64,000 nucleotides of DNA from NCBI RefSeq assembly GCF_016132545.1, contig NZ_CP066167.1, positions 2,197,001 through 2,261,000 of the forward strand. Reading direction: 5' to 3'. Position 1 is the stretch's first letter. Each line of letters begins with the position of its first letter. Shown here one piece after another: positions 29,515 to 64,000 of the stretch. Source of the stretch: Spongiibacter nanhainus (GTDB lineage: Bacteria > Pseudomonadota > Gammaproteobacteria > Pseudomonadales > Spongiibacteraceae). The position numbers and the translations under genes are program-made. The notes below the pieces were generated by a model, which worked only from the letters and a program-made list of their open reading frames with translations, searched no databases and was not told the origin of the DNA.

Positions 29515-32500
29515 TTACAGCTGGTCGATCAGGCCCTGCGCTTCACTGCGCTGGGCGTCGTCGCCCTCTTCCAGCACCTCGTCGAGAATCTCCCGGGCGC
29601 CATCTTTGTCGCCCATGTCGACGTAGGCGCGAGCCAGATCCAGCTTGGTAGCCACCTCATCGGCATCACTGCCCAAAGAGAACTCACCGCCCTCCTCGGG
29701 GTCTGCGTCAAACTCGTCAAACACCAATTCCTCAACATCCAAATCACCGCTGTCGGTGGGAGCTGGGGTAGTGGCCTCCGGCGCGGCCACGGTGTCGTCC
29801 TGAGTTTGCATCAGTTCATCGGCGTAGTCGGCGCTTAGCTCACCATCCGCCTCGGCGTCGGCAGCCTCCATCAGGGCATTCAGCGTTTCTTCACTGCCAT
29901 CGTCTTCAAAGTCGAACTCGCTGCTCGTGTCACCGGCGCCCGCCAAGCTATCAGCAGCGCTGCTTTCCGCTTCCTCGCTGGCTGGCTCACTGCTTTCAAT
30001 ACTGAGGTCATCACTGTCAAAGGTGGTAGCGGGCTGACTCTCTACTTGCCGGTCGTCCTCGATGTCAGCATCGGGGCTGTCCAGGCTATCGCCAAAGTCT
30101 GCCCCCAGATCTGAGCTCAGGTCACTTTCCAGATCGACTGAGAAATCGTCTTCCGCGTCTGATGACTCAGGTTCGTTGGCGGATGCTTCCTCGCCCGCTT
30201 CTGAGGTCGCGTCATCGGCATCGAAATTAAAGTCGGAGAGGTCCATGTCCAGCTCGGACAAGTCGCTTTCCCCAGGTTCTTCGGCTAGCGGTTCTTCGGC
30301 CAGCGGTTCTTCTGCTGGAGTCTCTTCAGCCGGTGTTTCTAAAGCCAGCGGCTCTTCAGCTGTGTCTATGTCTAACGTTTCAGCCCCGCCCAAACCCGCT
30401 TCAGGTGCCACAGGTTCCGGATCCAAGGTATCCAATTCAAACTCGGACAAATCCATATCCAGTTCGGGATCGTCTTCCTGTGCCGGCTCGGAGAAACTGG
30501 CCTCCTCACCAGCGGCAGAAAACTCACTGCCCTGCTCTTCCGTCTCCCCAATCGCTGCGTCCAGGTCTCCCAGATCGAAGTCAGTGTCGAAATCCAGATC
30601 ACCCTCATCGGCATCGCGCTGGGCTTCTTCAAAGTCCAACTCAAAGTCACTGTTGCCCGCGACCTCAGTTTCGCTGTTATCCGATACCGATGGGCTTTCT
30701 TCCAGCTCGGCTTGAGTGACATCATCGGCCGGTGCTTCGAGTTCGCTGTCGCTGTCCAGGAAGGCCAGTTCGTCATCCAGTGCGTCCAGTGAAGCACTGT
30801 CGCTAGCCATGTCGCCACTCGCTGCGGCGCTGGGCTCATCCAACCAGTCGCTGACCCCCTCGATGGCAGACATCGATTCCTTGACCCTCGCTACGGCATC
30901 TTCGTCACCCATCTCACGAAGTTCGGCAAAGGCTTGCTGGAAGTTGTCCCGATCTCGGGTGTCCAGGTACAAGTCAATCAGTTTCACCCGCAGGGCACTG
31001 TTTTCCGGGTCCCGGGCGATGGCATTTTTCAGCAAACTGGAGGCCTGGTCATAGCGCCCATAGGCCACGTAAATCTCGGCTTCAGACATCACGTCGTCAG
31101 TCTGGGGCTGCACCGACTCGGCACCGCCTTCTGTGGCCGTTTCCCAAGCCGCGGACTGCTCCCAATCGGCACTGCCTTCGCTCAGGTCACTGTCTGAGGC
31201 CGGCTTGTCCAGATCCAGATCGTCGAGATCATCCAGGTCAAGGGAAGATGCCGCGGCAAAGGCGGTATCCTCACCGCTGCCCTCTTCGCCACCCTCGGCG
31301 CCGGGTTCTTCATTGAGCTGATCAAAATCCAAAGCGGTTTCAGCGGCGCCCGCCCCGTCAACAAACCCGGTGTTATCGTCGCCCTCAATAACGGGCTCAT
31401 ACTTGGGCTCGCCCTCGTCGCGATCTTTTGCTCGCTGCCGCAGGGCCAATATCAACAACACTATAATGACCAGGGCACCCAGAACCATTTGAACCATGCG
31501 GTTGCTGTACCAGGGCTCACTGCTGGATTGCGTGCTCTGCGCCGCAGGAGTTGGCTCAGACTCGCTGGCTTGCTTCGGTGTGGCGTCTTCCTGTTTGGCA
31601 GCGCCATCACTTTGTGCCGCCGCCTCATCTGCCGCATTGCTGTCTGCCACTACAGCGTCAGCCTGTCCCTCCGCTGCGCTTTCTTCTGTTGCTTCCGCGC
31701 TGCTGTCCTGCAAGTTTTGTTGATCCGTCTCGGCGAGATCGCTTTCACTGACGCCACTTTGCAGGGCCGCCAGCTGGCGGTTTTTCAGGGCAATCAGTTT
31801 TTGCAGTGTCTCGATCTGGGTCTCCATTTCCGTGACCCGGGACTGCATATTCTCGTTTTCAAGCTGCGCTCTCTCCAGCGCCTCCTTCTCTTCTTGCAGC
31901 TGACGCTCAAGGTCAGCGACATCACCGCTGCCAGCTTCACCTTCGCTGCCCGCACTCAGTGAAAAGCGCCCACCATCGCTGGATGCTGGCGCGGGACCCG
32001 TGGGCTCCGCTGATTTAGTGGCATCTACCTGTGGCGCAGTGGTCGCAGGCTCCGCTGCAGCGCTAGCGCTGGAGGCAGCCGGTTCGCCCCGCCAGCGGCG
32101 GTTTTGGTCGCGGATATCGGTAATTGCCTGATAGGGATCCACGGCCTGCACTTCAGATTCGCTGGGCAAACGCAGCACATAGCCGGATTTAATCTGGTTG
32201 ATATTGTTGCCGATGAACGCGTCGGGGTTCTTGTTGTAAATCGCGATCATGGTCTGCTGGGTGGTCACCAGCGCACTGGGGCGGAAACGCTCCGCCAGGC
32301 GCCACATGGTATCTTTGTGCTGAATGCGATATTCGTCGGGATCTTCAGCGGGGGGTAGCACCGTTTGCTGAGCTTCTGGCCGCGCCTCAGGGGCCACCGG
32401 CGCCGCAGGTCCCCGGGCACCGCCCGGCTCAACCACTTCAGACTTTTTTACCGTATTGTCCGCAGCGTCCGAAGCATTGCTGGTGGTATCCGTCGGCGAC

Positions 32501-32946
32501 GTCAACGCACTGCGCTGTGCGGCTTGCACCGGTGCGCTGTCACCACCGTATTGGGGAAGGTCCAGCAGCAGGGTATATTCCCGCAGCATGCGGCCATTGG
32601 GCCAGCGCAGCTCGACGATAAAATCGAGATAGGGTTCAACCACCGGGTCCTGAGTGGTCACCCGAATTTGGCTAAGCCCCGCTTCGTTGACCTCAACACT
32701 GAATTTAAGCTTGGACAAAAACTGAGTGCGGTCAATGCCAGACTCTTGGTAGGTCTGACGATCGGCCAGCTTGACGAGAATTTCCGCTTCGCTGAGTTCA
32801 CCCACGTCCCGCAGTGGGATGCTGGCCTCGAGGGGCTGGTTCAGGGAGGATTTGAGCGAGATTTCACCCACGCCCAGCGCATGCACCAGACCACTTTGCA
32901 GGACCCCGGCGAGAAGTACCGCCTTGGCCAGCCTGTTACTCAACAT
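29515..32946 (-). CDS. fimV: FimV-type polar scaffold protein
   Basis: A 1143-residue protein with an N-terminal signal (LAKAVLLAGVLQSGLVHALG), the FimV N-terminal domain (GEISLKSSLNQPLEA), a LysM-type peptidoglycan-binding region near residues 205-255, a coiled coil (about 345-405) and one membrane helix (MVQMVLGALVIIVLLILAL). Then comes a very long acidic cytoplasmic tail rich in Asp/Glu/Ser and a C-terminal TPR-like FimV domain (LDLARAYVDMGDKDGAREIL). FimV positions polar machines such as type IV pili and flagella. The acidic tail contains short tandem repeats (30275-30334). Confidence 0.93.
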   Translation of the reverse strand: MLSNRLAKAVLLAGVLQSGLVHALGVGEISLKSSLNQPLEASIPLRDVGELSEAEILVKLADRQTYQESGIDRTQFLSKLKFSVEVNEAGLSQIRVTTQDPVVEPYLDFIVELRWPNGRMLREYTLLLDLPQYGGDSAPVQAAQRSALTSPTDTTSNASDAADNTVKKSEVVEPGGARGPAAPVAPEARPEAQQTVLPPAEDPDEYRIQHKDTMWRLAERFRPSALVTTQQTMIAIYNKNPDAFIGNNINQIKSGYVLRLPSESEVQAVDPYQAITDIRDQNRRWRGEPAASSASAAAEPATTAPQVDATKSAEPTGPAPASSDGGRFSLSAGSEGEAGSGDVADLERQLQEEKEALERAQLENENMQSRVTEMETQIETLQKLIALKNRQLAALQSGVSESDLAETDQQNLQDSSAEATEESAAEGQADAVVADSNAADEAAAQSDGAAKQEDATPKQASESEPTPAAQSTQSSSEPWYSNRMVQMVLGALVIIVLLILALRQRAKDRDEGEPKYEPVIEGDDNTGFVDGAGAAETALDFDQLNEEPGAEGGEEGSGEDTAFAAASSLDLDDLDDLDLDKPASDSDLSEGSADWEQSAAWETATEGGAESVQPQTDDVMSEAEIYVAYGRYDQASSLLKNAIARDPENSALRVKLIDLYLDTRDRDNFQQAFAELREMGDEDAVARVKESMSAIEGVSDWLDEPSAAASGDMASDSASLDALDDELAFLDSDSELEAPADDVTQAELEESPSVSDNSETEVAGNSDFELDFEEAQRDADEGDLDFDTDFDLGDLDAAIGETEEQGSEFSAAGEEASFSEPAQEDDPELDMDLSEFELDTLDPEPVAPEAGLGGAETLDIDTAEEPLALETPAEETPAEEPLAEEPLAEEPGESDLSELDMDLSDFNFDADDATSEAGEEASANEPESSDAEDDFSVDLESDLSSDLGADFGDSLDSPDADIEDDRQVESQPATTFDSDDLSIESSEPASEEAESSAADSLAGAGDTSSEFDFEDDGSEETLNALMEAADAEADGELSADYADELMQTQDDTVAAPEATTPAPTDSGDLDVEELVFDEFDADPEEGGEFSLGSDADEVATKLDLARAYVDMGDKDGAREILDEVLEEGDDAQRSEAQGLIDQL
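30275..30334 (-). repeat. 15-bp tandem repeat within fimV
   Basis: Four in-frame 15-base units (30275-30289, 30290-30304, 30305-30319, 30320-30334; variants of GGTTCTTCGGCTAGC) encode successive Ala-Glu-Glu-Pro-Leu-like pentapeptides in the acidic tail. They would be prone to slippage that changes tail length without shifting frame. Confidence 0.8.
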
Positions 32947-58614: not shown

Positions 58615-59304
58615 CTACTGATCGCAGCTGATACGCAGACCACCGGCGATAGCCAGCGGCGCAAACGCCACCGCCAACAGTAAAAACACTCCCAGCATCG
58701 CCAGTTGCGGCAATACCGCCACCCCTTCTACCGCTGATTGCACGGCGCTGCTGCCAAAAATAAGCACCGGGATATACAAGGGCAGCACGATCAGCGACAT
58801 GAGTAAGCCACCTCGCCGCAGCCCTACGGTAAGCGCCGCCGCAATGGCACCAATAAAACTCAGCACCGCGCTGCCCAGCATCAGGCTCACCATCAGCGCC
58901 GGCATCCCAGTCGGGGGCAGTTGCAACAGTACGGCCAGCAGCGGCGACAAGATACTGAGCGGCACACCACTTAACAACCAGTGAGCCAGTGTTTTCGCCA
59001 ACACATGGCCGTACAGCGGCAGCGGGCTGAGCAGCATATGCTCCAATGTGCCATCTTCAAAATCGCTGCGAAACAAACCCTCAGTCGCCATCATCGCTGC
59101 CAGCAGGGCCACCACCCAGAGTATGCCCGGTGCCAAATTGGCCAGCTGGCGAGGATCGGGACCCAGACCCAGTGGAAACAACGAGCACACCATGACAAAA
59201 AACAGCAGTGGGTTGGCCCATTCACTGCCCCGCCGGGACGCGACCAGTACTTCGCGGCGCAGCGTAGCAGCCATTGCTACCGGCAAAGAGGACAAGGGCG
59301 ACAT
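58615..59304 (-). CDS. ccmB: Haem exporter permease CcmB
   Basis: A 229-residue protein with six predicted helices and the conserved segment FRSDFEDGTLEHMLLSPLPL. With CcmA and CcmC it forms the ABC complex that releases holo-CcmE. Its start shares one base with the ccmA stop region. Confidence 0.95.
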   Translation of the reverse strand: MSPLSSLPVAMAATLRREVLVASRRGSEWANPLLFFVMVCSLFPLGLGPDPRQLANLAPGILWVVALLAAMMATEGLFRSDFEDGTLEHMLLSPLPLYGHVLAKTLAHWLLSGVPLSILSPLLAVLLQLPPTGMPALMVSLMLGSAVLSFIGAIAAALTVGLRRGGLLMSLIVLPLYIPVLIFGSSAVQSAVEGVAVLPQLAMLGVFLLLAVAFAPLAIAGGLRISCDQ

Positions 59305-59948
59305 TACTGCGCCTCCAACGACAAAACCCGAGGCGGACGGGACAGCGACAAGCTGTGATGGGTCGTCAACAGCACCATTCCTCCGGACTCGGCGTGCTGA
59401 TCTATCCAGCTTTCTATTTCAGCGACGCCAGCCAGATCAATGGCGGTGAATGGTTCGTCCAACACCCATAGCGAGGCCGGCGAGCAGAACAACCTGGCGA
59501 GACTAACCCGGCGCTGCTGGCCGGCCGACAAGGCATAACAGGGCTGGTGCTCGTAGCCCGCCAAGCCGACCTTTTCCAGCGCTGCAAAAATCGCATTGTC
59601 GTCAACAGGTGAACACAGAGCGCCGGTCCAGCGCAGGTTTTCCAGAGGCGTTAGCGCCGCTTTCACTCCGGCGTTATGGCCGAGGTAGAGGGTGTCGGCC
59701 AGAAATTCGACCCGCCCCTTCGGCATCGCCGTGCCGCGCCATGATATGTTGCCTTGATACTGGCTTGAGAGCCCCATCAAAATCCGCAGCAGTGTGGTCT
59801 TGCCGCTGCCATTTGGGCCGGCCAGTTGCACCACATCACCCGCCCCCATGGTCAGGGATAGTTCGGTAAACAGGGGCACGTCGTCCCGCTCGCTAGAGAG
59901 CCGATCCAGTACCAGTACAGCGTCAGCGGCCAAACCACCCCCCGTCAA
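59304..59948 (-). CDS. ccmA: Haem exporter ATPase CcmA
   Basis: A 214-residue ABC ATPase: Walker A AGPNGSGKTTLLRIL, signature LSAGQQRRVSLARLF, Walker B LWVLDEPFTAID. ATP hydrolysis drives release of haem-loaded CcmE from CcmC. It is the first ccm gene, 96 bases downstream of the Hpt-like gene on the same strand, so ccm could be read from the flagellar side as well as its own promoter. Confidence 0.95.
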   Translation of the reverse strand: MTGGGLAADAVLVLDRLSSERDDVPLFTELSLTMGAGDVVQLAGPNGSGKTTLLRILMGLSSQYQGNISWRGTAMPKGRVEFLADTLYLGHNAGVKAALTPLENLRWTGALCSPVDDNAIFAALEKVGLAGYEHQPCYALSAGQQRRVSLARLFCSPASLWVLDEPFTAIDLAGVAEIESWIDQHAESGGMVLLTTHHSLSLSRPPRVLSLEAQ

Positions 59949-60044: not shown

Positions 60045-60872
60045 TCAGTGGCGATCCAGCCACTCAGCCAGGTCTTCCAGTGCCGCCCTTAAGGCATCGC
60101 TATCTCGGTCTCGGTGTGCCTGAATCGCCGCACGGGAGAGTTGCCGCCAACGGGGTGGTGGCGAGCTGGAAACGGTCGACCGGGACAGCGCGGGCAAGGG
60201 TTTGATGGTTCCCGAACTGGCGGCTTTCAGAGGCCGCCAATCCTCACCAGCGTCAGCTGCCGCCGCGCCAAGTGACAGGGGCTGTGCAACCGGCTCAGAC
60301 TGGCTGACAACGAGTGTGGGGTCGGAAGAACGCAGAGGCTGGCTGGTCGAATGGCTAGATGCAGGGCCTTGCGGCGAAGTTTGCAGTGCGGTCGATTCAG
60401 GCGGTGCTGCTGGCGATTCAAAAAATTGCTCCAGCGGGTCACCAACGCTGCCTTCAACGCTGGTTTCCGGCACCCGACTGCGGCCTTCTTCGATGCTTTC
60501 CAACAGCTGCTGCTGCAATGACTGGGTATCGCTTTTGATCGTGTTGCCTACCGCAAGGGCCTGCACCATATTTTCCAGCTCTCTGGCAGCGGCATCCAGC
60601 AGCGAGAACACCCTCGGCGTCATCGGCAAACGGCGTCGCCTGAGGCGCTCTATCACCCGTTCGCAACAGCCCGCCAACTCCGATAAGGGCGACAACTTCA
60701 TGACCGCTGCCCCGCTTTGGATGGTATCAAAACTGCGGTGGAGGTCGTTTAACAAACGTTGGCCGTCTACCCCGTAGCGGAGCTCTGCCAGTTGCTCGTG
60801 CAGCAGCTCTAACAGCTCTTCGGCCTCGGCCAGAAATATGGTTAACAGCCCATCGTGCTCTGCTCCGTTCAC
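60045..60872 (-). CDS. Hpt-like protein lacking the phosphorylated histidine
   Basis: A 275-residue soluble protein. Residues 7-110 resemble the P1 (Hpt) domain of CheA: an acidic first helix (FLAEAEELLELLHEQLAEL) and the second-helix motif LNDLHRSFDTIQSGAAV. In CheA that motif is usually L-N-x-x-F-R-x-x-H-T/S-I-K-G-x-A; here the His position is Asp49 and the Lys is Gln52. The remainder is a Ser/Pro/Ala-rich linker and a short helical tail (about 235-275). No kinase, CheW-like or dimerisation domain is present. It overlaps the receiver-like gene by four bases. Probably a scaffold or binding domain, not a phosphotransferase. Confidence 0.75.
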   Translation of the reverse strand: MNGAEHDGLLTIFLAEAEELLELLHEQLAELRYGVDGQRLLNDLHRSFDTIQSGAAVMKLSPLSELAGCCERVIERLRRRRLPMTPRVFSLLDAAARELENMVQALAVGNTIKSDTQSLQQQLLESIEEGRSRVPETSVEGSVGDPLEQFFESPAAPPESTALQTSPQGPASSHSTSQPLRSSDPTLVVSQSEPVAQPLSLGAAAADAGEDWRPLKAASSGTIKPLPALSRSTVSSSPPPRWRQLSRAAIQAHRDRDSDALRAALEDLAEWLDRH

Positions 60873-61348
60873 GACGTCCCCTCCGTCTGCGGCGGCAGCC
60901 CCAGCGCTTCGCTGAGCTTTTGCTCCAGCACTGAGGGCTTATAGGGCCACACCAGCACACTGTTAACGCCAAGCTCGGCGGCCTGTCGTACCAGTACCGC
61001 ACTGGCGCTGGACACCATCAACAACACCGGAACGGTGCTAAGCCGGCTGTCATTGCGCAGCGCCCGGGTCAATGACAAGCCGCTGAGCCCCGGGCTGTCT
61101 TGCGCCGCCAGGATGACGTCCAGGTGTCGATTTTGCAGCATGGTCAGTGCAGCGAGGCCGTCTTCCGCCTCAATAACCCGGTGCAGCCCCAACGCCATCA
61201 GTACCTCCCGGGTATTGCGACGGGCGGCGGCGTCCCCTTCTACCAGCAGTAAGCGCGCGTCGGCCAGGCAACTGGCCCGCCGGCGGCGCTCCTCGCCGGG
61301 CAAGGCATCGTCAAAGGGGTCGGGAGATTGCAAGCCTCGGCGCGACAT
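60869..61348 (-). CDS. Receiver-like protein with a degenerate phosphorylation site
   Basis: Predicted 159-residue protein: about 30 basic N-terminal residues, then a CheY-like receiver fold (ARLLLVEGDAAARRNTREVL to SVLVWPYKPSVLEQKLSEAL). By manual alignment with CheY, the acidic pair is Glu37-Gly38, the phosphoacceptor Asp is Ala82 (ILAAQDSPGLSG) and the invariant Lys is Trp134. Ser survives at the Thr/Ser position (MVSSAS). It is thus a pseudo-receiver, unlikely to be phosphorylated normally. ATG 61348 has AAGGA seven bases upstream. It sits 25 bases downstream of the FleN-type ATPase gene. Confidence 0.78.
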   Translation of the reverse strand: MSRRGLQSPDPFDDALPGEERRRRASCLADARLLLVEGDAAARRNTREVLMALGLHRVIEAEDGLAALTMLQNRHLDVILAAQDSPGLSGLSLTRALRNDSRLSTVPVLLMVSSASAVLVRQAAELGVNSVLVWPYKPSVLEQKLSEALGLPPQTEGTS

Positions 61349-61373
61349 CACGGAATCCTTATCCCTCTATTGG

Positions 61374-62180
61374 TCATCCGGCGAGCAGCTGGTCGACAAA
61401 AAATTCCAGCTGCCCCCTGGAGCGGGTCGCCACCGGCCACGTTGCCAGCGTTTCTGCGAGCTTGCGAATCGCCAGAGCAGAGGCGCTTCCCGGAGACTGC
61501 AACAGCACTGGCTGCTGTTGCCGGACCGCCTCTCGCAGTGCGTCATCCATTGGAACCGTACCTGCATAGAGCAGACTGACGGGCAAAAACTGCTGGCACA
61601 CCGCATCCAGTTTGTCGACCAAATCCCGCCCTTCCTGCTCACTGGCAACCATGTTGGCCACCACTCGAAACCGCTGTCGGCCAAAATCCCGCCACAATAC
61701 TTTTATCAGCGCATAGGCGTCGGCAAAGGACGAGGGATCATTGCACAGTACCACTAACACCTCGCGACTGGCGTTGGCGAAATTGACCACTTGGTCACCA
61801 ATCCCCGCCGCTGTGTCCACCAGAAGTATATCCAGCTGGTCGGCAATGGCATCAAAGGCGCTCACCAGTGAACTGTGCTCCAGCTCGCTGAGCTTGGTTA
61901 ACCGGCGAGTACCAGAGGCGCCAGGTATGACCCTTACCCCTGCGGGACCTAAACGCACAATATCCCGAAGCTCGGCGCGACCCTCCAGCACATCCTCGAT
62001 TGTGGCACCCGGCGGCAGATCCAACATCACATCGACATTGGCAAGACCGAAATCGGCATCCAGTATCGCCACTCGCTGGCCAGTCTCCGCCAGGGCGATG
62101 GCGGTATTCACGGCCAGGGTGGTTTTGCCTACCCCGCCTTTGCCGCCGGTCACCGCCACAACCTGCACCGTCCGACTCAC
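61374..62180 (-). CDS. fleN: FleN/FlhG-type MinD-like ATPase
   Basis: A 268-residue ParA/MinD-family ATPase with deviant Walker A GGKGGVGKT (residues 12-20), DADFGLANVDVMLDL, switch DTAAGIGDQVV and a C-terminal segment RGQLEFFVDQLLAG very like Pseudomonas FleN. FleN/FlhG sets flagellar number by opposing FlhF and the FleQ activator. Neither flhF nor fliA flanks it as in Pseudomonas. Its start overlaps the upstream membrane-protein gene by four bases. Confidence 0.85.
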   Translation of the reverse strand: MSRTVQVVAVTGGKGGVGKTTLAVNTAIALAETGQRVAILDADFGLANVDVMLDLPPGATIEDVLEGRAELRDIVRLGPAGVRVIPGASGTRRLTKLSELEHSSLVSAFDAIADQLDILLVDTAAGIGDQVVNFANASREVLVVLCNDPSSFADAYALIKVLWRDFGRQRFRVVANMVASEQEGRDLVDKLDAVCQQFLPVSLLYAGTVPMDDALREAVRQQQPVLLQSPGSASALAIRKLAETLATWPVATRSRGQLEFFVDQLLAG

Positions 62181-62731
62181 GACGCCCCCTTACCGCTTGG
62201 CAACAGCGGCGTCACTTGGAAACGCCCCCAGCTCCAGGGCTGCTCGGCAATCAGCACAGCATCAGCCATGGCCATCACCCGCTTTACCAATCGCTCATCC
62301 ACGGGGGAGGACTCGATAAGAATGATAAATTCGCCGCTATCCCGCTGCGCCAAAAATGGCTTTAGCGCCGGGTTGTCCTGCATCAAGCCCAGCATGCCGC
62401 CCCACCAGGCGCCTGCAAACCACATCGTCAGTGGCAGCGCGTATAGTGTTGTGGCGCGCAGAGCGTCTGATTCCACCGGCCAACCTCCAAGAATGAACAA
62501 AGCGCTGATCACTCCCACCAGCAATCCCAGTAGTGAGCCCCGCAGCGCCCCGTCGCGCAGATCGCTGCGCTGCACAGGCCCAGCTGCGGTTAACCCCAGC
62601 GCTTCGACCCGCCCGTCCTGCTTGCTAAGCACACGGCTACGCCACCCTTGCAGGTGGGGTTGAATCAGCGTCTCGGCGACAGCCGCTAGTGCGTTGTCAT
62701 CACAACTAAAAATGAGGCGTTTAAATGGCAC
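62177..62731 (-). CDS. Membrane protein between fliN and fleN, unknown function
   Basis: A 184-residue protein with a soluble N-terminal part (FKRLIFSCDDNALAAVAETL), two hydrophobic segments (GSLLGLLVGVISALFILGGW and LYALPLTMWFAGAWWGGMLGLM) and a soluble C-terminal part (GEFIILIESSPVDERLVKRVM). The helical hairpin between two small alpha/beta parts recalls DUF1269-like stress proteins, but I cannot place it firmly. It is not FliO, which normally follows fliN and has a single helix. Coupling to fleN suggests a related job. Confidence 0.7.
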   Translation of the reverse strand: MPFKRLIFSCDDNALAAVAETLIQPHLQGWRSRVLSKQDGRVEALGLTAAGPVQRSDLRDGALRGSLLGLLVGVISALFILGGWPVESDALRATTLYALPLTMWFAGAWWGGMLGLMQDNPALKPFLAQRDSGEFIILIESSPVDERLVKRVMAMADAVLIAEQPWSWGRFQVTPLLPSGKGAS

Positions 62732-62761
62732 GTCAGTATTGAGTCCCGTTCCCAGTTAATG

Positions 62762-63094
62762 TCAGCGCAGCGACTGCAGTCGCTCAGCGGCGCTGACGAC
62801 TTCAGTCAAACGTACCCCCAGGCGGTCATCCACTACCACCACTTCGCCCCGGGCAATCAGTGTGCCGTTCACTTTAACGTCCAAGGGGTCGCCGGCCTGC
62901 TTCGCAAGCTCCACCACCGCCCCCTGCTGCAGCTCCAGCAGCTCTCGGATCGGCAGTTCGGTCCCCCCCACTTCCAGTGTCAGATTGACGGGGATATCCA
63001 GCACCCGGTCCAACTCCGGCGTCGAAGTAGAGCGTTCACGCAGTCGCTGATTGGCAATACCGTCGCCAGAGCGCGCTTGTTCGTTATCCTGCAT
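62762..63094 (-). CDS. fliN: Flagellar motor switch protein FliN
   Basis: Predicted 110-residue protein with a short polar N-terminus and a complete SpoA domain (VLDIPVNLTLEVGGTELPIR, then PLDVKVNGTLIARGEVVVVD and LGVRLTEVVS), nearly the consensus flagellar FliN. FliN forms the C-ring base with FliM and contributes to export and switching. I start at ATG 63094 (MQDNEQARSG), overlapping the fliM end by 11 bases; the frame runs further into fliM. fliO/P/Q/R do not follow. Confidence 0.92.
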   Translation of the reverse strand: MQDNEQARSGDGIANQRLRERSTSTPELDRVLDIPVNLTLEVGGTELPIRELLELQQGAVVELAKQAGDPLDVKVNGTLIARGEVVVVDDRLGVRLTEVVSAAERLQSLR

Positions 63095-64000
63095 AGTGTT
63101 GTCCGCCTGTGCTGTTTTGACCTTCGCCCAATTCAATGAGGGAGTGAACTTCCAGGGCGAGCTGCCCATCTTTAACGCCCAATTGCCCCCGCGCCACGGG
63201 GATGCCAGCGGCAGTCAGCAAGGATCGATCGCGGCTACCCAAGCTGATGACATCGCCAACGGCCAGCTCGGTCACCGCCCGCAGTGTTGTTTGACGCTCA
63301 GCCACTGTGCACCGGGTGGGTACTGCACTGTCCAGCACTCCCCGGCGCAGGGTTTCCGTCCATACCGGGTCGGCGTGGCGTTGCTGCGCGGCACCGCGCC
63401 GGGCCAGGCGTTCTCTAACCGGTTGCAGACTGGCCTCGGGAATCACCAGATGGCACTCGCTGTCACCGCTAACCACATCACTGCACAGGAAACGGCAGAC
63501 CACCGCGGTCTCCCCCCGATCTGCGACTCTCACCATTGCCGGGTTGGTATGTTGATCGACGAAGTGGAAATGGCTCTGCATCACCGGCCGCCACGCGGCG
63601 TTCAAGGATTCGTTGAGGCGGGGCAGCAATTGCGCCACCAGTCGCTCCTCGGCTCGGCTAAAGCGCCGGCCCGGTTGACTGTCGTAGCGTCCGCCGCCAC
63701 CAAAAAATCGTTCCAGCAAGCGAAACACCATGCGGGCATCCATGGCGACAATTGCACTGCCAGGCAATGGTGACAAGTCCATAACATTGAGACTAGTGGG
63801 AACATACAGGGAGTGTAGATATTCGCCAAAGGGAAGCGTTTGAATTTCCAGCAAACTCACTTCCACATGGGGCCCGACCAGGTTGTGCAACTGCTCGGTA
63901 AAGCCTTCGGCAAAGCGCCGACAGATATGCGCCAAGCCGGGCAAACCCTGCCTAGATGGACGCCGGCGCCGACTCAGGTCGTAGCGTTGGGGCGCGGCGA
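63084..64000 (-). CDS. fliM: Flagellar motor switch protein FliM (5' end beyond window)
   Basis: The frame stays open to the right edge, reading Gln-Arg-Tyr-Asp-Leu-Ser and onward into PGLAHICRRFAEGFTEQL, which aligns with FliM's YDLTSQ...LEMINERFAR region, so the start lies outside. A middle CheC-like domain (GSAIVAMDARMVFRLLERFFGGGGRY) and C-terminal SpoA domain (AVTELAVGDVISLGSRDRSLLTAAGIPVARGQ, in parts) are visible. FliM forms the rotor switch. Whether the N-terminal CheY-binding peptide is kept cannot be seen; that matters because the neighbouring receiver protein is degenerate. Confidence 0.9.
   Translation of the reverse strand, partial: AAPQRYDLSRRRRPSRQGLPGLAHICRRFAEGFTEQLHNLVGPHVEVSLLEIQTLPFGEYLHSLYVPTSLNVMDLSPLPGSAIVAMDARMVFRLLERFFGGGGRYDSQPGRRFSRAEERLVAQLLPRLNESLNAAWRPVMQSHFHFVDQHTNPAMVRVADRGETAVVCRFLCSDVVSGDSECHLVIPEASLQPVRERLARRGAAQQRHADPVWTETLRRGVLDSAVPTRCTVAERQTTLRAVTELAVGDVISLGSRDRSLLTAAGIPVARGQLGVKDGQLALEVHSLIELGEGQNSTGGQHYAG

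Follow-up and report, generated by a model that had tools for sequence, protein, structure and literature searches.

Within the flagellar C-ring (FliG-FliM-FliN), FliM carries an N-terminal region to which CheY binds. In monotrichous bacteria, FlhG/FleN is reported to interact with FliM through the FliM N-terminus and to tie the assembly of the C-ring to the control of flagellar genes (PMC12826062). PMC6079164 describes the charged stator-contact residues R281, D288 and D289 of the FliG C-terminal domain (FliG_C) as being of primary importance for motor function, and PMC5677366 describes the CheY-like Cle proteins of Caulobacter, which act on the motor switch and whose activation needs cyclic di-GMP (c-di-GMP) and not phosphorylation. 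Here we report a locus of Spongiibacter nanhainus in which switch proteins, a FleN-type ATPase and a CheY-like receiver occur together, apart from the flagellar assembly genes. The stretch analysed (hereafter, the window) comprises 64,000 nucleotides of the 4.08-Mb, single-contig genome (G000:C1:2197001-2261000). From position 64000 down to 60045, its minus strand encodes FliM', FliN', a membrane protein (MP'), a FleN/MinD-type ATPase (FleN'), a receiver (CheY') and an Hpt protein (P1'), with ccmA next; the prime marks proteins of this module. We consider it fairly probable that the locus is an in-place remnant of the native polar flagellar-chemotaxis supercluster, reduced to its rotor-switch core, which would serve as a non-rotating C-ring platform for FleN' and CheY'. 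This estimate is carried by the gene order, the flank, CheY', P1', the residues lost and retained, and the ratios of nonsynonymous to synonymous substitution rates (dN/dS).

The whole operon reads FliF'-FliG' fusion, Hpt protein, FliM', FliN', MP', FleN', CheY-like protein, CheA-P1-like protein, and then ccmA. Its start lies upstream of the window edge and encodes the fusion, of 564 amino acids (aa), and a 121-aa Hpt protein (HptB'); the preceding gene we take to be ttcA. A preliminary description, made from the window sequence alone, had listed six same-strand genes with overlaps or short gaps, including an unknown membrane protein after fliN, and on these points it was correct. All six lie on the minus strand, the fleN' and MP' genes overlap by four bases, as do those of P1' and CheY', and 96 bases separate P1' from ccmA. 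Pfam matches were obtained for FliM (E=1.6e-39), the FliN C-terminal domain (5.7e-25), the ParA/MinD class (FleN', 1.5e-19), Response_reg (CheY', 1.7e-14) and Hpt (P1', 1.9e-10), and the 184-aa MP' stayed below every Pfam family cut-off. In NCBIfam, the fliN model TIGR02480 exceeded its cut-off, and the best matches of the receiver and of P1' were CheY and CheA, respectively, both under cut-off.

The same gene order was found in related genomes, so that it is not unique to the window genome. A FliF'-FliG' match was present in 20 of the 21 genomes of the family (which we take to be Spongiibacteraceae, in the order Pseudomonadales), the window genome included, and the sole genome lacking one is 70% complete. 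The neighbourhood of the second FliG was read in the 19 other genomes with the module, and in all of them the succession was ttcA, FliF'/FliG', (HptB'), FliM', FliN', (MP'), (FleN'), CheY', P1' and the ccm genes, bracketed members being absent from some; FliN' of two loci, CheY' of L047 and, by alignment, P1' of L061 were added by separate work. Eleven of the loci are named, and belong to Zhongshania, Spongiibacter and Neomelitea. HptB' and FleN' are missing, with no room left for them, from both loci of a sister genus (L061 and L062), and MP' is present in 17 of the 19 relatives (in L051 through its copy L070), the spacing in L062 and L063 being too small. The proposal that the module joins the switch to FleN thus stands insofar as switch genes beside a FleN-type ATPase are conserved, although two of the 19 relatives lack FleN'. 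When 390 genomes of the order were surveyed with a FliG' profile, 18 family members scored 374-493 bits and, among the matches listed, the best outside the family scored 303 bits and corresponded to an open reading frame (ORF) of ordinary FliG length; such a survey would miss a more diverged module, and four weak outside matches were searched again. With the same profile, 217 and 223 bits were obtained for the working FliG in two genomes of the family. A 3.3-3.5 kb block running into ttcA is 96-97% identical at the DNA level in L046, L062 and L063, although their FliM' proteins are far apart, and represents either a recent transfer or an assembly artefact. Our literature search, which largely did not reach subscription journals and did not cover bioRxiv, returned no description of such a module; a Spongiibacter paper with motility data covers chemotaxis and stator genes, and the part of it available to us does not mention the module locus (PMC8805636).

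The origin of the module was sought in the flagellar clusters of ten genomes from other families of the order, in which 20-40 kb was read from fliE or fliF. The native order is fliE-F-G-H-I-J, genes for a STAS and a receiver protein (hsbA-hsbR), hptB, fliK-L-M-N-O-P-Q-R, flhB-A-F, fleN, fliA, cheY, cheZ, cheA, cheB ... ccmA, where several names are presumed from position. Eight of the ten clusters are unbroken from fliE/fliF to fliM and beyond (that of G047 exits after hptB and that of G053 is split), six run on to fliA and a cheA, and hptB occurs in all except those of G236 and G056. An annotated ccmA is reached in G242 (three genes between) and G236 (one between), and ccm-like genes, named by eye, in G056. 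The module corresponds to this gene list minus about three quarters of its entries, with the order retained, and on this collinearity it is best read as the native flagellar-chemotaxis supercluster collapsed in place. Two of its proteins point the same way. In one relative, CheY' shares 62-64% identity with the five native CheY found, and 34% or less with the receivers in the own chemotaxis and Pil-Chp stretches. A P1' profile aligned to the six native CheA found as two separated blocks, with 111-127 bits, as against 31 bits for the own CheA and 54 for the own ChpA-like protein, and P1' is for this reason regarded as an internally deleted CheA.

P1' retains P1 and a P3 piece, and no kinase-domain match was found in it. 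In the window genome the CheY and CheA pieces do look disarmed, as had been stated earlier: the receiver has exchanged both the Asp57 and the Lys109 residue (which we take to be E. coli CheY numbering) and P1' its His (see the table), and HptB' has an intact H-x-x-K-G. Coupling without phosphotransfer, as first suggested, therefore describes the window genome and does not extend to the family, where the receiver Asp is kept in 18 of 19 relatives (the remaining one having Glu) and the P1' His in all 19, whereas the Lys of the P1 motif is retained in two and replaced by Tyr in 16 and by His in one. Intact receivers are thus found in close relatives and, given the Asp kept in 18 of 19, most members of the family probably have a CheY' that can be phosphorylated, the window species being an exception. 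The CheY' with Glu in place of the phosphorylated Asp (L060:8182-8661, plus strand) may be locked in the active state and represent a second loss of the phosphorylation site.

The module has a complete C-ring set, with FliG_N, FliG_M and FliG_C in the fusion and FliM and FliMN_C in the other two proteins, all over Pfam cut-offs. The three stator-contact residues are lost in all 15 FliG' aligned (20 module copies being known), and in the 32 other FliG (10 native, 12 working, 10 from outside the order) R281 and D289 are invariably kept and D288 is D or E. As to residues of secondary importance, two FliG' copies have Arg at the K264 position, and the window copy has Arg at R297; because this region of the FliG_C alignment contains gaps, the loss as a whole is more certain than any one column. 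The EHPQ motif for FliM docking is kept in 15/15 aligned FliG', and the FliM' N-terminus reads [ILMV][LM]SQxE[IV]DALL in 20/20 copies (16 by pattern, four by eye). Such retained docking (20/20) beside lost torque residues (15/15) would also be expected of a signal sink, a ring with no structural role that merely titrates CheY-P or FleN and thereby buffers chemotaxis or flagellar-number control; a sink, however, would need neither FliG' and FliN' nor the membrane anchor and MP', and we give this idea little credence. FliF' consists of a transmembrane segment (TM), RBM3 without the beta-collar, a second TM and the FliG-binding tail, and is fused to FliG' or lies beside it; it aligns to the last third of FliF only, and so falls short of a full FliF MS ring housing an export gate. 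In the 19 relatives' loci there is no room for any export gene within the module. A type III secretion C-ring (SctQ) was ruled out, the locus being without export genes and FliN' scoring 102.8 bits with the fliN model (cut-off 84.05) and 71.2 with SctQ (cut-off 100.8).

The preliminary description had the module standing in place of a chemotaxis operon, with fliOPQR replaced or missing, and had advised searching the rest of the genome for both; a flagellar cluster and chemotaxis clusters lie elsewhere, and this reading is ruled out. A full flagellar cluster at 1.70-1.74 Mb, containing the single FlhA match (1.73 Mb), reads flgB to flgL, flagellin, fliD, fliS, fliE to fliR, flhB, flhA, flhF, fleN and fliA, where FlhA and FliG were named by family search and the other names are assumed by eye. 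The two FliG_C matches of the genome lie in this cluster and in the module. Five CheW-domain matches, two of them within CheA-sized frames (683 and 1851 aa), belong to CheA/CheW clusters near 0.23 and 3.46 Mb. As export genes and CheA/CheW are present elsewhere, the module did not take over their functions. In all seven readable family sequences the N-terminus of the working FliM is altered, to LDPEE[IL]EALM in five and to L[DE]QEEIDALM in two (sister genus), and the readable FliM of others have LSQ[DE]EIDALL in 24/24; on these motifs, the module and the working flagellum may be insulated from each other. The altered motif (7/7) also lends something to a different proposal, namely that FliM' and FliN' (and CheY') are built into the working C-ring as alternative subunits that tune switching: FliM', with LSQxE[IV]DALL, could supply the CheY docking, and FliN' is 43-56% identical to the working FliN in four genomes. 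FliM' and FliG', however, share only 23-27% and 23-28% identity with their working counterparts, and the FliG' and membrane anchor that stay with the module would be superfluous for an add-on subunit, and we hold this proposal to be improbable.

Selection was estimated by the Nei-Gojobori method from up to five pairs of relatives, and thus for the relatives and not for the window lineage; dS was saturated in several pairs, for which the ratio is missing or unsure. The dN/dS was 0.03-0.05 for FliM', 0.05-0.06 for FliN', 0.03-0.04 for FleN', 0.04-0.10 for FliG', 0.02-0.12 for CheY' and 0.01-0.19 for HptB', and among the flank controls 0.02-0.08 for CcmB and 0.01-0.16 for TtcA (0.01-0.05 in 8/10 ccmB and ttcA comparisons). 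These values indicate purifying selection on the switch, FleN' and CheY' genes in the relatives and speak against simple decay there. Leftover genes decaying without a role would account for the Asp and His lost and the long branches in the window lineage, and for the erosion of FliF' across the family; they would hardly be expected in 19/19 loci read or with dN/dS of 0.02-0.12 for switch, FleN' and CheY' genes in relatives, and a mere relic seems to us very unlikely.

Trees (unrooted) and identities gave a mixed picture, and for this reason the origin of the module was rested on gene order, flank, CheY' and P1'. In quick trees FliM' stood beside one native sequence (Of37; support 99), the working FliM formed one long-branched cluster, the working FliG grouped with FliG of other orders (99), and the working FleN clustered together, separately from both FleN' and native FleN; a six-protein concatenation placed the working flagellum with other orders (95). 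In four genomes, FliM' is 34-42% identical to native FliM and the working FliM 21-28%, and FleN and FliN identities show no clear difference between module and working copies. The nearest FlhA outside the family to the working FlhA is 66% identical and comes from outside the order, in-order FlhA reaching at most 60% (few compared). By these comparisons the working flagellum would be either acquired or an old duplicate; Enterobacteriaceae are a described case in which a foreign flagellum was acquired (PMC8042155).

Several observations weigh against an in-place remnant or against its role as a platform. Support for module plus native FliM is only 57, and FliG' is split into two long-branched pieces that lie apart from native FliG, to which it is 27-37% identical as against 37-47% for the working FliG (four genomes). 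Grouping FliM' with the working FliM was not rejected (p of the approximately unbiased test, 0.56; this tree scored 2.6 higher), nor was grouping FleN' with the working FleN (p 0.51), and such groupings would fit an old duplication inside the family; a working plus native grouping was likewise not rejected for FlhA (p 0.48), FliG (0.38) or the six-protein concatenation (0.40). Four module copies have lost the periplasmic domain of FliF', and the prediction for G014 shows no TM, so that an MS ring is not possible in every case. The dN/dS is looser in FliF' (0.20-0.33), MP' (0.06-0.29) and P1' (0.11-0.28). The window copy itself is fast-evolving, with long FliM' and FliG' branches and a CheY' only 31-34% identical to native CheY, and may be decaying. 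Finally, FleN cannot be a universal partner, being absent, like HptB', from the sister genus; docking of CheY' may then be the older role.

FleN' is a FleN/FlhG homologue by its deviant Walker A motif (GGKGGVGKTT), its ParA/MinD-class matches and its 47-61% identity to FleN sequences. MP' is predicted to adopt a ferredoxin-like (PII-like) domain split by two long helices (predicted local distance difference test score, pLDDT, 83.1; structure matches weak), a fold that would suit an anchor in the membrane or a sensor. Among the matches listed, the protein to which MP' is paralogous occurs, at E<=0.001, in 141 of 293 genomes of the order, 13 of which belong to the family. The possibility that MP' is a fossil of a native cluster gene was ruled out by this order-wide paralogy and by a profile search of ORFs of at least 80 aa, which gave no match in the stretches read of the ten native clusters or of the own flagellar and chemotaxis loci. 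A second MP' paralogue of the ordinary kind lies at 0.817 Mb in the window genome (L195:1726-2319, minus strand), and its neighbour looks by eye like uroporphyrinogen decarboxylase. In a genome of another family (G226), an MP' homologue (L196:15762-16277, minus strand) directly follows an hptB-like gene (by eye) in a flagellar cluster, and in at least six more genomes of that family a homologue lies on the fliG contig, within about 17 kb.

Collinearity, flank, protein anatomy, residue losses and retentions and purifying selection can be read from the sequences directly; for ring assembly, docking partners and output we infer the following. In the Spongiibacter/Zhongshania family the native supercluster would have collapsed to its switch core, with a different cluster elsewhere driving swimming. 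FliF', FliG', FliM' and FliN' would form a membrane-tethered ring or patch that stators could not drive, and the N-termini of FliM' would dock FleN' and CheY'; we propose a non-rotating platform because the docking site, FleN' and CheY' are kept in a ring that stators could hardly drive. A phosphorylation signal passed on by the Hpt proteins might in this way be coupled, at the platform, to the control of flagellar number or to polar placement. In the window lineage only the scaffold and the FleN' side would remain, because the receiver and P1 phosphorylation sites are lost. The further idea, that a switch ring became a stand-alone, non-rotating signalling C-ring, stator-blind and tethered to the membrane, that takes FleN and CheY inputs and was kept through the family's history beside a working flagellum, we offer only tentatively.

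Features of the module, its flank and an example of a working FliM
Feature	Position	Strand	Remarks
fliM'	63084..64000	-	337 aa in all; start just outside the window, at G000:C1:2261097; N-terminal motif LLSQNEIDALL
fliN'	62762..63094	-	110 aa from ATG at 63094, more plausibly the start than 63169, from which a longer ORF overlaps fliM'
MP' (membrane protein, 184 aa)	62177..62731	-	predicted beta-alpha-beta, two long helices, beta-alpha-beta
fleN' (FlhG/MinD-like ATPase)	61374..62180	-	nucleotide-binding motif GGKGGVGKTT intact
cheY' (receiver)	60869..61351	-	Ala in Asp57 column, Trp in Lys109 column
P1' (internally deleted CheA)	60045..60872	-	P1, plus a P3 piece in relatives; Asp in His column
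ccmA	59304..59948	-	outside the module; flank in common with the native cluster of other order members
working FliM of a relative	L011:17010-17957	+	example locus; non-consensus N-terminus

FimV is a polar landmark protein of pseudomonads, and the window also contains a 1143-aa ORF (29515-32946, minus strand) that looks FimV-like by eye.

In the module, nature has set the flagellar switch apart from torque, export and filament, and one locus records the dismantling of a whole flagellar cluster and which parts selection retained. If functional, it would mean that a C-ring with FleN and CheY partners can have a selected role of its own, and the two unlinked switch sets would offer a genetic system for studying FleN-FliM and CheY-FliM docking without rotation.

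Among described systems, the window CheY' resembles the Cle proteins in that it could act on FliM without phosphorylation, and most CheY' differ from them in retaining the Asp. With the FlhG/FleN-FliM checkpoint, the module shares the kept FliM N-terminus and a fleN' that adjoins the fliM'/fliN' region; in contrast to it, the C-ring genes lie outside the flagellar assembly locus, and the sister genus has no FleN'. Like the flagellar C-ring, the module has all three proteins, the three FliG domains, EHPQ and the FliM N-terminal motif, but it is without torque residues or local export genes and coexists with a second, working set. The closest resemblance in gene content is to the native flagellar-chemotaxis supercluster, with which it shares the same genes, relative order and ccm flank and, in a relative, the 62-64% CheY' identity; it differs in keeping eight of roughly thirty genes, in its cut-down FliF and CheA, in a FliG without stator-contact residues and in the membrane-protein gene at the fliO-to-flhF position.

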